Virus record (IMG/VR): IMGVR_UViG_3300037502_001664
Coordinates: 1 to 42,443 of that record
Length of the DNA: 42,443 nucleotides
Reading direction: 5' to 3' (one strand)
From: a virus
In this document: in pieces, positions 9,805 to 35,555 of the stretch
How positions within the stretch are numbered: position 1 is the stretch's first letter
Layout: the number at the start of each line of letters is the position of its first letter
Program-made: the position numbers and the translations under genes
Notes under the pieces: generated by a model
The model's input: the letters and a program-made list of their open reading frames with translations, nothing else
What the model was told of the DNA's origin: nothing
The model's database searches: none

Positions 9805-10332
9805 TTATTTTCCAGCTATATCCTTTCTATCAATCAAAACAACTGATTGCTTAATTGGAGAATTCGAATCAAAGATAAACACAACACTTCCTTTGTTATT
9901 TCCGCTAACCGGCTTTTGTGTTTCTGCGTTAATAAATGACAATCTGCCGCTAATTAAATGACACTCCGTACAATTTTCAAAAGCAAGCTTAAACCATTTT
10001 ACAGACGTGTCGGCAGGTATAAGCATTAAAACTGGTACCTTTGATTGTCTTGAAATGTCTATACACAATTCAACCCATGGATTAATATCGCTGTACGGCG
10101 GATTGCAGAATACCGCACCATCAAAGCCTTTGTTAGATTGTTTAAATGCACTGTTATCTCCTTCGCTACAATACCAATTGCAAAGTTTATTCTCTTTGCT
10201 AGCAGCCAAATCCCATTCAAACATAAATCTCCTATCGTAATAATCAAAAACCTCTCTAGGTGTTTGCCATAAATCGCGAATTTCTTTAGGCGTTTCGCTA
10301 TCGTGATAACCTTTCACTTTTCTATCCCTCAT
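9805..10332 (-). CDS. Phage DNA N6-adenine methyltransferase (Dam family)
   Basis: The 175-residue protein belongs to the phage-type DNA N-6-adenine methyltransferases. Visible signs are LWQTPREVFD, DLAAS (41-45, the SAM region) and the catalytic NPPY at residues 77-80. It likely methylates adenine in GATC-like sites and so protects phage DNA from host nucleases or regulates replication. Its last gene partner is NinB; its start overlaps the P-like gene by 11 bases. It lacks the C-terminal target domain of larger Dam proteins, as usual for this phage group. Confidence 0.9.
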   Translation of the reverse strand: MRDRKVKGYHDSETPKEIRDLWQTPREVFDYYDRRFMFEWDLAASKENKLCNWYCSEGDNSAFKQSNKGFDGAVFCNPPYSDINPWVELCIDISRQSKVPVLMLIPADTSVKWFKLAFENCTECHLISGRLSFINAETQKPVSGNNKGSVVFIFDSNSPIKQSVVLIDRKDIAGK

Positions 10333-11386: not shown

Positions 11387-11556
11387 TATTCATTAGATTG
11401 TCTTTGTAGGTCTGCTAGTTTATCTCTTAACCTCTTTAACTCATCACTAGCTGCTTTCTTATCATCAAAGTCAGAACTGTATTTTAGCTTATTCTTTTGC
11501 TTTGCTATCTGCTTTAGTGTGCGCTGTATAGTGCGCTTTAAGTGGTTAGGATGCAT
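11386..11556 (-). CDS. Small basic coiled-coil protein, 56 aa
   Basis: Not recognised. It is Lys/Arg-rich throughout, with Leu at heptad-like positions in the second half (LKRLRDKLADLQRQ), so a coiled coil is likely. It starts 11 bases inside the end of the methyltransferase gene, and its stop lies in the terminator stem at 11386. Probably translated by coupling. Confidence 0.65.
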   Translation of the reverse strand: MHPNHLKRTIQRTLKQIAKQKNKLKYSSDFDDKKAASDELKRLRDKLADLQRQSNE

Positions 11557-12031
11557 CTGAAATCATTAACTCATTCTTCATAAAGCAAACCCAGTGCGTG
11601 TCGCTGCGCTTTCCGCTAATATGCCCAAACATTGGTTTGTATGGTGAGCAAGTTAGTATCTCTTTTGTCTTTATTTGTATTTCATTCCATTTAAATATAA
11701 GAACGCCATCATTCTCAAGTACCCTAAAGCACTCTCTAAACGCCTTTGATATGTAATCGCGCCAATCTTCAGGAAGTTTTCCATACTTAAGTGCCATCCA
11801 TGATGCTTCACCAAGCTTATCAAGATGAGGCGGATCAAAAACAACAACTTTAAATTTATCGTCTGGCCAGTCCATATTGGTGAAATCACCAATCACATCA
11901 GGTTTTACGATTAGTTGACGTCCATCGCAGAGATTCGTATCAAGCTCTCTTTTATCTTGGAACACTGTTAATGGGTTTTCTTTATCAAACCAGAACATTT
12001 TTGAACCACAACATGCATCTAGCACTTTCAT
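11546..12031 (-). CDS. SAM-dependent DNA methyltransferase-like protein
   Basis: The 161-residue protein has a class I methyltransferase fold. DACCGS at residues 5-10 is the SAM-binding motif I, and DPPH at 66-69 is a variant of the catalytic DPPY. It likely methylates DNA, most probably adenine. It is the second methyltransferase of this genome. It is the first protein gene downstream of the long non-coding RNA with tRNA, so it is probably expressed from the promoter at 12754. The SD is GGAG, 8 bases upstream. Confidence 0.82.
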   Translation of the reverse strand: MKVLDACCGSKMFWFDKENPLTVFQDKRELDTNLCDGRQLIVKPDVIGDFTNMDWPDDKFKVVVFDPPHLDKLGEASWMALKYGKLPEDWRDYISKAFRECFRVLENDGVLIFKWNEIQIKTKEILTCSPYKPMFGHISGKRSDTHWVCFMKNELMISDAS

Positions 12032-12044
12032 ATTATTTTCTCCA

Positions 12045-12726
12045 ATAGGTCAAACAAAGACACAATGGGTGAAATATCCTTCATATCTTTAAGTTAGTAA
12101 ACAAGTAAGAGGTTCAGTATCACGCCATGTTTAAAGTGTTCTCACACTAGTCAGCTTTCGCTTTCACCCATTCTAAGCAATGCTTATCCCAGTCTTATGG
12201 TCGAACATCTTACTCTAGTCAAATTGTCATTGGGTAGTTTTTACCTGCTCAAAGCCCAACTGGTCACAGTTACTTTTTAGCGGATAGCTGTAAGAAGCTA
12301 AGGAATGGCGCTCTACTCAGGACTCGAACCTGAAACCGTCTGCTTAGAAGGCAGATGAACTATCCAATTGTTCTAGTAGAGCGTTATCTCTATGGAGACT
12401 GTAAGAAAGAATTTGCATCTGCCTCGCAAAGGCTGGAGAATTTCACTCCTTGTCGGTGTATCGGTGGCTTTTAACCTACCTAGAGAGCCATAACCAGATA
12501 ATCTTTTAAGCTCTCACCGCCCTCTCAACTCTGGCGTTAGTCATCTTTAGCTTATGATTAGATACAAAAAAGGATACTTACAACTGCGATCCTCTATGGT
12601 GGAAGAGGGGCGAAACTTGACGGTTTTAAAAACCCCTAGAATCGCATGTGTAAATATCCTCAATCACCGTCTTTTATTCTTAGCAGCTTCCACACCGCTT
12701 TGTGATTGATTCCCGACCAACCACAT
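12045..12726 (-). ncRNA. Large structured non-coding RNA with an embedded tRNA (GOLLD/ROOL-like)
   Basis: A 680-base stretch has no open frame and reads leftward from a strong promoter (12759-12732). It is full of stems. TCAATCAC (12709-12702) pairs with GTGATTGA (12667-12660). AGGATATTTACA (12660-12649) pairs with TGTAAGTATCCT (12582-12571), twelve pairs with one U-G, and the stem continues inward with GCGAT/ATCGC, TCTA/TAGA and AGGGG/CCCCT. Further hairpins lie before the tRNA. After it come AACTG-TGAC-CAGTT, TAAGC...GCTTA, and a last domain closed by AATGGGTGAAA/TTTCACCCATT (12172-12162 / 12074-12064) that includes AGC-GAAA-GCT and AGTGT-GAGA-ACACT with GNRA loops. Size, phage origin and the tRNA inside resemble GOLLD and ROOL RNAs. 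Family membership is inferred, not tested. Confidence 0.75.
12306..12382 (-). tRNA. tRNA-Arg (anticodon TCT)
   Basis: The leftward strand folds into a complete cloverleaf: acceptor GCTCTAC/GTAGAGC, discriminator G and an encoded CCA end (12308-12306), D stem GAAC/GTTC, anticodon stem TCTGC/GCAGA with loop CTTCTAA (anticodon TCT, reading AGA), and a T loop GTTCGAGTC. AGA is a rare arginine codon in many gammaproteobacteria but usual in AT-rich phages, so supply of this tRNA fits codon use. It is located inside the large structured RNA rather than in a tRNA cluster. Direct repeats TTACAG close to both sides (12404 and 12291) border it. Confidence 0.95.
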
Positions 12727-12731
12727 TAATA

Positions 12732-12759
12732 ATTTTAATCTATACTCCTATTTTGTCAA
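12732..12759 (-). promoter_or_regulatory. Strong promoter of the large RNA
   Basis: Read leftward: consensus -35 TTGACA (12759-12754), 16-base spacer, -10 TAAAAT (12737-12732). The start would be near 12725. It is one of the best sigma-70 promoters in the window and has no CRP-like dyad. Confidence 0.85.
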
Positions 12760-12783: not shown

Positions 12784-12954
12784 TCAAATCGGACTCACTA
12801 TCTCGCCAGTAATCACGACTTGATCGCCTTTCTTCTCCCAACTCTTAGCAACTCGCTTTTGGTTATCGAAGTAATAGTATCCATGCTTACTCATTTGATA
12901 TGCTATGTTTTTTAGTGCTGGGGAATGTTTGTGTAGAGTTTGTCTGTAATTCAT
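12784..12954 (-). CDS. Small basic protein, 56 aa
   Basis: Not recognised. It starts at ATG 12954 in an ATGA overlap with the gene upstream. It has a Tyr/His/Lys-rich middle (HGYYYFDNQKR) and a beta-like end. It is the last gene of the leftward set 13937-12784 before the promoter of the structured RNA. Confidence 0.6.
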   Translation of the reverse strand: MNYRQTLHKHSPALKNIAYQMSKHGYYYFDNQKRVAKSWEKKGDQVVITGEIVSPI

Positions 12955-13169
12955 TTTATCTTCCTTATATTCTCAATTCTTACAACCTTATCAACAAAAA
13001 AGAACTCATGTATAAAATAACCCCTCTTTGTTATTACGGGTTCTTTGCTATATAAGCTGTAGTTAAAGCTGCAACCTTTAATGTACTGCTCAGTCCCGTC
13101 CGTGCAGGATACATAAGCATCACAAATATATTGAAAGCAACTGCTTAGCCACTCTTCATAAGTTGGCAT
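12951..13169 (-). CDS. Hypothetical protein, 72 aa
   Basis: Not recognised. The ATG at 13169 has AAGGAG 5 bases upstream. It contains four cysteines, without metal-site spacing, and many Tyr and Phe. The start shares a base with the stop of the gene at 13348, and the stop overlaps the next ATG, so the cluster is translationally coupled. Confidence 0.65.
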   Translation of the reverse strand: MPTYEEWLSSCFQYICDAYVSCTDGTEQYIKGCSFNYSLYSKEPVITKRGYFIHEFFFVDKVVRIENIRKIK

Positions 13170-13348
13170 CACAACTCCTTAACTATAATTGTCTTGTTTC
13201 TTGTTATCTTAAAAACAAATCCCTTTAGTAATTTGCTTTCGTGTACTTGAACTTTTGCTTTTCCATTCATCGCCACTGTCCAGATAATCGAAAGCTTCAA
13301 TAGTGCAAAGCGTTCAGTCTTTAGATGGATTGTTATTGGACGAATCAT
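13169..13348 (-). CDS. Small basic protein, 59 aa
   Basis: Not recognised; the frame is just short of 60 codons. It reads as a basic chain with alternating hydrophobic residues, likely a small beta-rich fold. It overlaps both neighbours: 35 bases with the gene at 13314-13478 in another frame, and one base (TGATG) with the gene downstream. No clear SD is visible. It fills an otherwise empty stretch between coupled genes, the main reason to accept it. Confidence 0.55.
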   Translation of the reverse strand: MIRPITIHLKTERFALLKLSIIWTVAMNGKAKVQVHESKLLKGFVFKITRNKTIIVKEL

Positions 13349-34397: not shown

Positions 34398-35555
34398 TTA
34401 GCCGATATTGTGTAGTCGAGCCATGTGAGTCTTAGACTGGCGAACTTCCATAGCAAAGTCACCAATGATACGAGTACGCTCACCATCCTGACCGTTTTGA
34501 GTTGCGTCTTTAGTCTGCCATGCGCCAGAAGCTGAAGCGTTATTAGCAGCCATAGGAACAACTGAAATCATGCCAGAATCAAAGATAATCAACTCATCGT
34601 CAGATAGGTTAGTATCAACAACGATTTGGTTAACATTACCAACTAGCGGGAGGTCAGAAGGAAGACGAAGCACGGAGCCTTCATCAGCAGTCCAATCAGC
34701 TAGGCGCTGGGAGCTGTAGTTGGCAGAAACAAGCGCAGACAACTTACGAGCTTGCTTGATACCAACGGCAATAGTGTTAGCCATACCTCCTCGCGCAACA
34801 ATCTCAGCGTTAAGCACGTTAATCGCATCAAGAGTCAGAACAGCAGCGCTGTTATCTGTTTTGATTGCGCCAGCTTGGTCTAGGAAGTAACGTAGACCGC
34901 CAGTGTAAGTAACAGTATCAGAACCAATAGTTGCAGTCGCTTTACGGCCACGAACCAAAGCGCGATCCATTTGGATAGTTAGCTGGCGGATGCGCTCAGC
35001 AACTTGGAAAGCTAGTGAGTTAGTGTCACCAAACTGAATGGTAGCCAACGCACGGCGAGAGAATTCAACCGCAGTATCCATTGTCTGGAAGAAGTTCTCA
35101 ACAGGGTCAGGCTGGAAGATGCCATCATTCTGCGCAAGTGAGTTTTCTTCACGACCAACAGAGTCAATAGTAATCACAGTGTCATCAGCGATATCAGCAG
35201 CAGTAGTACCGCCAAAGCCACGAGTAACAGTGATATCAGCACCAGAAACCGCAGTAACTAGCAAAACTTCATCAGAGCCAACAGGGGAAAGCGTCATGCC
35301 AGCGCGAACGTTAGACGCATCATCAAGAGTAATTGTTGTAGCAGCAGCCAGAACCGCGCCGTTAACAGTTACGCTTGTTGCGTCGACTCGCATATCAAGC
35401 CATGACATTTTGTAACCATCAAAAGCCTGACGAGCAGCGCCCATGCCAACAACAGATAGAATACCTGTACGGTTTGAGCGAGCAATTTCAAACGCTTCAT
35501 TGATTACTTTATCGTTTAGAGCCGCGGCTAAAACACCAGATGTAACAATAGTCAT
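34398..35555 (-). CDS. Major capsid protein (SU10/DUF5309 type)
   Basis: The 385-residue protein is the HK97-fold shell subunit. It follows the scaffold gene. The family is suggested by the start (TSGVLAAALNDKVINEAFEIARSNRTGIL), a GMGAARQAFDGYKMSWL segment, a Gly/Val/Thr insertion domain at about 60-120, and the long helix with FGDTNSLAFQVAERIRQL near 175-190. The end contains FDSGMISVVPMA and RIIGDFAMEVRQ. SD AAGGTG lies 6 bases upstream. This is the most abundant virion protein by role. The HK97-like unit usually needs a scaffold and protease; no separate protease is visible. Confidence 0.9.
   Translation of the reverse strand: MTIVTSGVLAAALNDKVINEAFEIARSNRTGILSVVGMGAARQAFDGYKMSWLDMRVDATSVTVNGAVLAAATTITLDDASNVRAGMTLSPVGSDEVLLVTAVSGADITVTRGFGGTTAADIADDTVITIDSVGREENSLAQNDGIFQPDPVENFFQTMDTAVEFSRRALATIQFGDTNSLAFQVAERIRQLTIQMDRALVRGRKATATIGSDTVTYTGGLRYFLDQAGAIKTDNSAAVLTLDAINVLNAEIVARGGMANTIAVGIKQARKLSALVSANYSSQRLADWTADEGSVLRLPSDLPLVGNVNQIVVDTNLSDDELIIFDSGMISVVPMAANNASASGAWQTKDATQNGQDGERTRIIGDFAMEVRQSKTHMARLHNIG

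Follow-up and report, generated by a model that had tools for sequence, protein, structure and literature searches.

To our knowledge, only two classes of phage RNA, ROOL and GOLLD, are known as builders of RNA-only cages, and no function is known for either. ROOL (RF03087) is a phage RNA of ~570-660 nt encoded near tRNAs; it comprises multiple pseudoknots and assembles into an 8-mer RNA cage. A much smaller structured RNA, put of HK022, about 70 nt in size, lies directly after a phage promoter. GOLLD (RF02032), a phage or prophage RNA of >400-800 nt with kissing loops and pseudoknots, consists of a divergent 5′ domain, a variable linker, and a 3′ domain with a universally conserved region. 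In the GOLLD layout the linker sometimes contains tRNAs, which are placed inside a 14-mer cage (PMC12286853). In addition, Vibrio phage ICP1 carries an abundant noncoding RNA of ~800 nt between gp139 and gp140, likened by its authors to GOLLD and ROOL (PMC7567579).

The window, i.e. the whole stretch of DNA analysed here, is a virus record of 42,443 bases (IMGVR_UViG_3300037502_001664) from a marine phage. It carries a predicted structured RNA of ~650 bases with a built-in tRNA, which very probably belongs to a new family of noncoding phage RNAs that are large (about 450-700 nt) and structured. This predicted family is absent from Rfam 15 and is laid out like the cage-forming RNAs with no recognisable relation to them. 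An earlier note on this DNA had claimed a gene-free gap at 12045-12759, and the gap is borne out; it lies between the gene at 12951-13172 and a DNA methyltransferase gene at 11546-12031, all on the minus strand, as is the RNA. The features of the locus are listed below.

12754-12759, minus strand: -35 hexamer TTGACA of the RNA promoter (sequence; promoter position conserved across relatives)
12732-12737, minus strand: -10 hexamer TAAAAT, 16-nt spacer (sequence; TATAAT in relatives 5-20 nt upstream of P1)
12702-12724, minus strand: P0, a predicted extra 5′ hairpin GUGGUUG/CAAUCAC special to the window member (folding)
12682-12699, minus strand: P1 hairpin AGCGG/CUGCU, with which the conserved 5′ domain begins (covariation)
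12687-12693, minus strand: K strand GUGGAAG in the P1 loop, pairing with 12599-12605 (permutation test; pair counts)
12666-12671, minus strand: A strand GACGGU between P1 and P2 (J1/2), pairing with ACCGUC in the P3 loop (permutation test; same topology in unlike 5′ domains)
12638-12660, minus strand: 5′ strand of P2, with P2a of 12 bp and P2b of 9 bp (covariation)
12632-12637, minus strand: 5′ strand of P3, AGGGGU (covariation)
12619-12624, minus strand: A′ strand ACCGUC in the P3 loop (permutation test)
12606-12611, minus strand: 3′ strand of P3, GCCCCU (covariation)
12599-12605, minus strand: K′ strand CUUCCAC in J3/2 (permutation test; pair counts)
12566-12593, minus strand: 3′ strand of P2, then the U6 run at 12566-12571 (covariation; U run kept in nearly all relatives)
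12560-12567, minus strand: 5′ strand of P5, UUGUAUCU, closing the linker arm (compensating alleles across relatives)
12413-12420, minus strand: 3′ strand of P5, AGAUGCAA (compensating alleles across relatives)
12306-12382, minus strand: tRNA-Arg(UCU), CCA encoded, in the linker joining the 5′ and 3′ domains (ARAGORN; Rfam RF00005, 63 bits)
12224-12297, minus strand: start of the 3′ domain, conserved (~90% identity with Vibrio phages NF, 1.275, and 1.122)
12045-12222, minus strand: rest of the 3′ domain (no homologue; no excess stability)
12208-12214 with 12104-12110, minus strand: 7-bp closing stem in the 3′ domain (complementarity)
12162-12172 with 12064-12074, minus strand: 11-bp stem in the 3′ domain (complementarity)
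12152-12164 and 12134-12148, minus strand: GNRA hairpins in the 3′ domain (sequence/folding)
11546-12031, minus strand: co-directional DNA methyltransferase gene downstream of the RNA (phrog_954, E 2e-73)

A conserved translated frame in the region, named by the earlier note as a reason to abandon an RNA, was looked for and not found, the largest open reading frame within the gap being of 51 amino acids and on the opposite strand. A translated product was rejected on the grounds that the frames in the gap do not exceed 51 amino acids and that those annotated over the relatives are discordant in strand and place. In relatives, the short genes that overlap the RNA and are annotated as "hypothetical protein" (L003:3140-3253, L006:3052-3165, and L048:1412-1671) are probably spurious. 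Elsewhere in the window, a second DNA methyltransferase gene (9805-10332) is found near that at 11546-12031, downstream of the RNA, and the same 42-kb phage that has NinG codes for an SU10-type major capsid protein (Pfam SU10_MCP, 34398-35555).

A blastn comparison with 50,697 phage records reveals two separate conserved blocks besides the tRNA. The first is a 5′ block (query 61-201; 77-84% identity in Pseudoalteromonas phages HS2, Pq0, and BS5 and in Vibrio phage 1.054), and the second lies just after the tRNA (query 453-539; 90-92% in Vibrio phages NF, 1.275, and 1.122). Relatives occur between genes in no fewer than 24 other phages of Vibrio and Pseudoalteromonas and viral contigs of marine origin, many of the phages compared being derived from a few collections. 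In annotated records the blocks occupy gaps of 450-820 bases between genes of the same orientation, disregarding small annotated ORFs, and the whole set is a mosaic, with 5′ domains, linkers, and 3′ domains shuffled between phages. Vibrio phage NF contains a second copy of the RNA (locus L061, 9900-11300, minus strand; model match at 792-925), followed by an open frame with the VGDIHGE motif of a calcineurin-like phosphoesterase.

For the 5′ domain a covariance model, R1, was derived from 18 sequences; it comprises the nested helices P1, P2a, P2b, and P3 only. It matches the relatives with E values from 1e-5 to 1e-28, and the window, whose sequence is part of the model, with 1e-26. Outside the training set the matches are L010 (9e-10), L052 (4e-7), copy 2 of NF (2e-9), L055 (4e-23), L057 (1e-20), and L056 (1e-18). 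The last three were retrieved only via a pattern of the 3′ domain and match R1 all the same; therefore, both ends of the RNA co-occur. Matches to the unlike 5′ domains of L048-L050 and L065 are weaker (E about 1e-5), and the best value in 155 kb of unrelated DNA, used as the negative control, is 0.026. A pattern scan of bacterial genomes gave 19 matches, none of them a member according to R1 (best E 0.026), no match was found in 185 genomes belonging to the same class as a Francisellaceae MAG, and plasmids gave matches to the tRNA only or none. The ICP1 noncoding RNA was ruled out as a member, as it has no match to R1.

A check of covariation in related phages, of the kind proposed by the earlier note, was carried out on an alignment of 25 sequences fitted to the P1/P2/P3 helices of R1, in which 91% of cells are paired, compared with 38-54% in slid versions. 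Changes on both sides are seen in 25 of the 32 pairs, with 122 doubly changed cells versus 38 in shuffles. Since the alignment was fitted to the modelled helices, the stronger test is that of the pairings outside the model, namely the pseudoknots K and A. For each, the pairing of a strand with its own partner was compared with that with partners from other members, these pairs being not aligned and kinship ignored, and 0 of 10,000 permutations reached the observed value (relatedness uncorrected). The K alleles are GUGGAAG/CUUCCAC in the window, UUGGUAG/CUACCAA in HS2, GUGGUG/CACCAC in BS5, UUGAAAGA/UCUUUCAA in H2, and UUUGGCGA/UCGCCAAA in NF, while in 1.122 and H105 the partner is located elsewhere in the 5′ domain with the pairing still kept. 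On the alignment, K shows 24 doubly changed cells versus 9 in shuffled versions, with pair and type counts no higher than in the shuffles. The topology of A reaching across P2 also recurs in 5′ domains of unlike sequence (eight sequences, p 0.0007). The predicted 5′ domain is thereby shown to be knotted, comprising P1, P2, P3, the pseudoknots K (P1 loop-J3/2) and A (J1/2-P3 loop), and a U run at its end.

The promoter TTGACA-16-TAAAAT claimed earlier is present at 12759-12732 on the minus strand. Taken alone it is within chance, with two promoter-like sites in 1.5 kb versus 3.8 in shuffles; its placement is backed by the relatives, as 22 of the 26 members have an exact TATAAT no more than 30 nt upstream of P1 (shuffled mean 0.7, maximum 6), mostly at a distance of 5-7 nt. 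This position puts P1 at the predicted 5′ end of the RNA. In the window the promoter lies 32 nt from P1, with the extra hairpin P0 there. The window thus displays the first half of the family layout, a promoter followed by P1-P2-P3 with K, A, and the U run. Many members have, by eye, a dyad around the -35 element (ACCCACC...GGTGGGT or CCCCACT...AGTGGGG). A 44-nt promoter block with such a dyad (CCAAACCCCACTTTGCATTTGTGTGGAGTGGGTGTATAATTA, L047:1281-1324) recurs alone in most of 316 Vibrio phage records and is almost identical across hundreds of Vibrio phages; it is a possible site of a shared regulator.

Next in the family layout, found also in the window, is the P5 arm or a tRNA, right after the U run, and then the 3′ domain. 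P5 occurs as UUGUAUCUG/CAGAUACAA, UUGUGUCUG/CAGACACAA, UUGUGUCA/UGACACAA, and UUGUACGUG/CACGUACAA in relatives; in Pq0 and L039 it is weak or missing. The arm takes the form of a hairpin, of a tRNA-like fold, or of real tRNAs, one to three in number. The acceptor stem of a real tRNA takes the place of P5 in Seahorse, H2, L055, and L057, the record of 242E40 annotates an undetermined tRNA there, and the arm of NF copy 2 resembles, by eye, a decayed tRNA. In the window, 1.110, and 1.242 the tRNA directly follows the arm; in NF and 1.275 the flanks are those of the window, with no tRNA. The tRNA-Arg of the window is intact, as had been claimed. Among the loci tRNA-Arg(TCT) is found in seven, and tRNAs for Trp, Met, Ser, and Gly also occur. 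In Vibrio phage BT-1011 (L045, 1485-2265) only the 5′ domain is present, followed by a partial tRNA and ORFs, one annotated as a homing endonuclease, which looks like an RNA interrupted at its tRNA site.

The 3′ domains fall into several types that do not align together, and for this reason a full mixed alignment was replaced by type-wise and alignment-free tests. In one type (HS5, Seahorse, 1.085, 1.189, HS2, the second copy of NF, and further members) a covarying stem closes the domain (nine sequences; p below 1/20,000 for own versus permuted partners). The window has a different type, of which the first ~75 bases are conserved at ~90% in three phages. No homologues of its final ~180 bases (12045-12222) were found in the phage searches, and its stems are therefore drawn from complementarity only. 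The many stems noticed earlier, including a 12-pair stem (AGGAUAUUUACA/UGUAAGUAUCCU), an 11-pair stem (AAUGGGUGAAA/UUUCACCCAUU), and two GNRA hairpins, were all found on the minus strand. This strand folds better than shuffles over 12040-12726 (z -3.0; plus strand -2.4). By part, z is -3.7 in the 5′ domain, -2.1 in the tRNA, -1.1 in the linker arm, and -0.1 (-0.07) in the 3′ domain, so the thermodynamic signal sits in the 5′ domain. As a whole, comparison (R1, the pseudoknots, and promoter placement) lends strong support to the claim of a large structured phage RNA that has a promoter of its own and contains a tRNA.

The layout of 5′ domain, tRNA linker, and 3′ domain copies that of GOLLD, and a tRNA-carrying scaffold is for this reason the leading mechanism. 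Transcription is predicted to start from the conserved promoter just upstream of P1, and comparison shows a 5′ domain knotted through P1, P2, P3, K, and A that ends in the U run. The linker arm P5, interchangeable with a tRNA or tRNA-like fold, comes next, and the mosaic 3′ domain, closed in its best-sampled type by the covarying stem, last. The RNA may be made in quantity during infection and serve as a scaffold, possibly homo-oligomeric as are GOLLD and ROOL, which would display or shield phage tRNAs or tRNA-like arms. Its purpose could be the delivery of phage tRNAs, here tRNA-Arg reading AGA, or the engagement of a host tRNA-binding factor. The complete statement, a new RNA family together with a tRNA-carrying and possibly oligomeric scaffold, is held tentatively, at somewhat short of an even chance, and the scaffold function, proposed by analogy, with a little more reserve. 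Against a scaffold speak the terminator-like end of the 5′ domain (a hairpin plus U6), the 3′ part of the window devoid of a folding signal, and the many relatives without a tRNA; moreover, RNase P may simply excise the CCA-encoding tRNAs, and no intact scaffold would then be left.

The main rival, in our estimate unlikely, is a cis-acting leader, in which the knotted 5′ domain and U run form a terminator/antiterminator switch, like the HK022 put RNA or an attenuator, setting read-through into the tRNAs (mere passengers) and the downstream operon. Compared by description only, the put RNA resembles this one as a structured RNA right after a phage promoter, but lacks a tRNA and a 3′ domain and is far smaller. 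The 5′ domain begins almost at +1, and in nearly all members it ends in a hairpin and U6, with P2 plus U6 resembling a terminator. The RNA continues without an obvious terminator into the co-directional downstream gene, whose ribosome-binding site it adjoins (the methyltransferase start codon is ~14 nt beyond the 12045-12759 stretch), and the operon entered in the window comprises methyltransferases and NinG, then terminase and portal genes. Nevertheless, a leader needs neither a conserved 3′ domain with a covarying closing stem nor an exchangeable, optional tRNA arm, the U run is lost in HS5, and the downstream gene varies between phages (methylase, C5-methylase, calcineurin-like phosphoesterase, and others; a methylase or the phosphoesterase is a frequent neighbour in relatives).

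Still less probable is a precursor serving solely the maturation of phage tRNAs, with the flanking structure guiding processing or protecting ends. Intact tRNAs with encoded CCA do occur at one fixed site and the phage genes are rich in AGA, the commonest Arg codon (95 of 306 in 22 large window ORFs sampled); however, at least 15 relatives with no detected tRNA keep the other domains.

The earlier note had left a choice between a divergent GOLLD or ROOL and a new class. The new class fits best (relatives, covariation, no Rfam family), and a divergent member of either class missed by the Rfam models is quite improbable, in spite of the agreement in size, setting, tRNA linker, and arrangement in two domains (PMC12286853). 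At the gathering score, Rfam 15 finds only the tRNA (RF00005) in the window and ten relatives. The proposed search with the GOLLD and ROOL models detected neither in the window and relatives, at relaxed thresholds as well, and searches of 28 member genomes were empty, the models being also silent on the intended positive controls (for GOLLD, 149 genomes of Lactobacillales and two phages of Lactobacillus, with no match). The two RNAs are therefore described as not detected, and not as excluded. Like GOLLD, the family is a large phage or prophage RNA with tRNAs nearby or in the linker, but in place of a universally conserved 3′ region it has several 3′ types, none matching the model, the 5′ domain being more widely shared. 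ROOL is alike in size, in the vicinity of tRNAs, and in having multiple pseudoknots, but it carries its tRNAs beside and not inside, and its helix plan has no detected similarity. The ICP1 RNA, also a large RNA of a Vibrio phage, contains no tRNA. No description of the family was found in the open-access literature. Finally, mosaic intergenic DNA made alike by recombination hot spots around tRNAs, with no functional RNA, agrees with the strong modular shuffling and is contradicted by the compensating changes in helices and pseudoknots, which leave it a negligible chance.

A tRNA-carrying scaffold would, in its fullest form, be a kind of phage RNA particle not described before, knotted and with a docking arm that accommodates a hairpin, a tRNA-like fold, or functional tRNAs (one to three), and possibly an RNA-only cage independent of GOLLD and ROOL; this we consider a little more speculative than the scaffold function itself. 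If true, it would add a third class, unrelated to these two but laid out alike, and tRNA-bearing RNA scaffolds would have arisen more than once. The presence of the family in small cultured Vibrio and Pseudoalteromonas phages offers tractable systems, such as Vibrio phages NF, Seahorse, 1.275, and H2 and V. natriegens phage L3, and the loci with 0, 1, 2, or 3 tRNAs at the same site form a series that amounts to a natural experiment on the role of the tRNA there.
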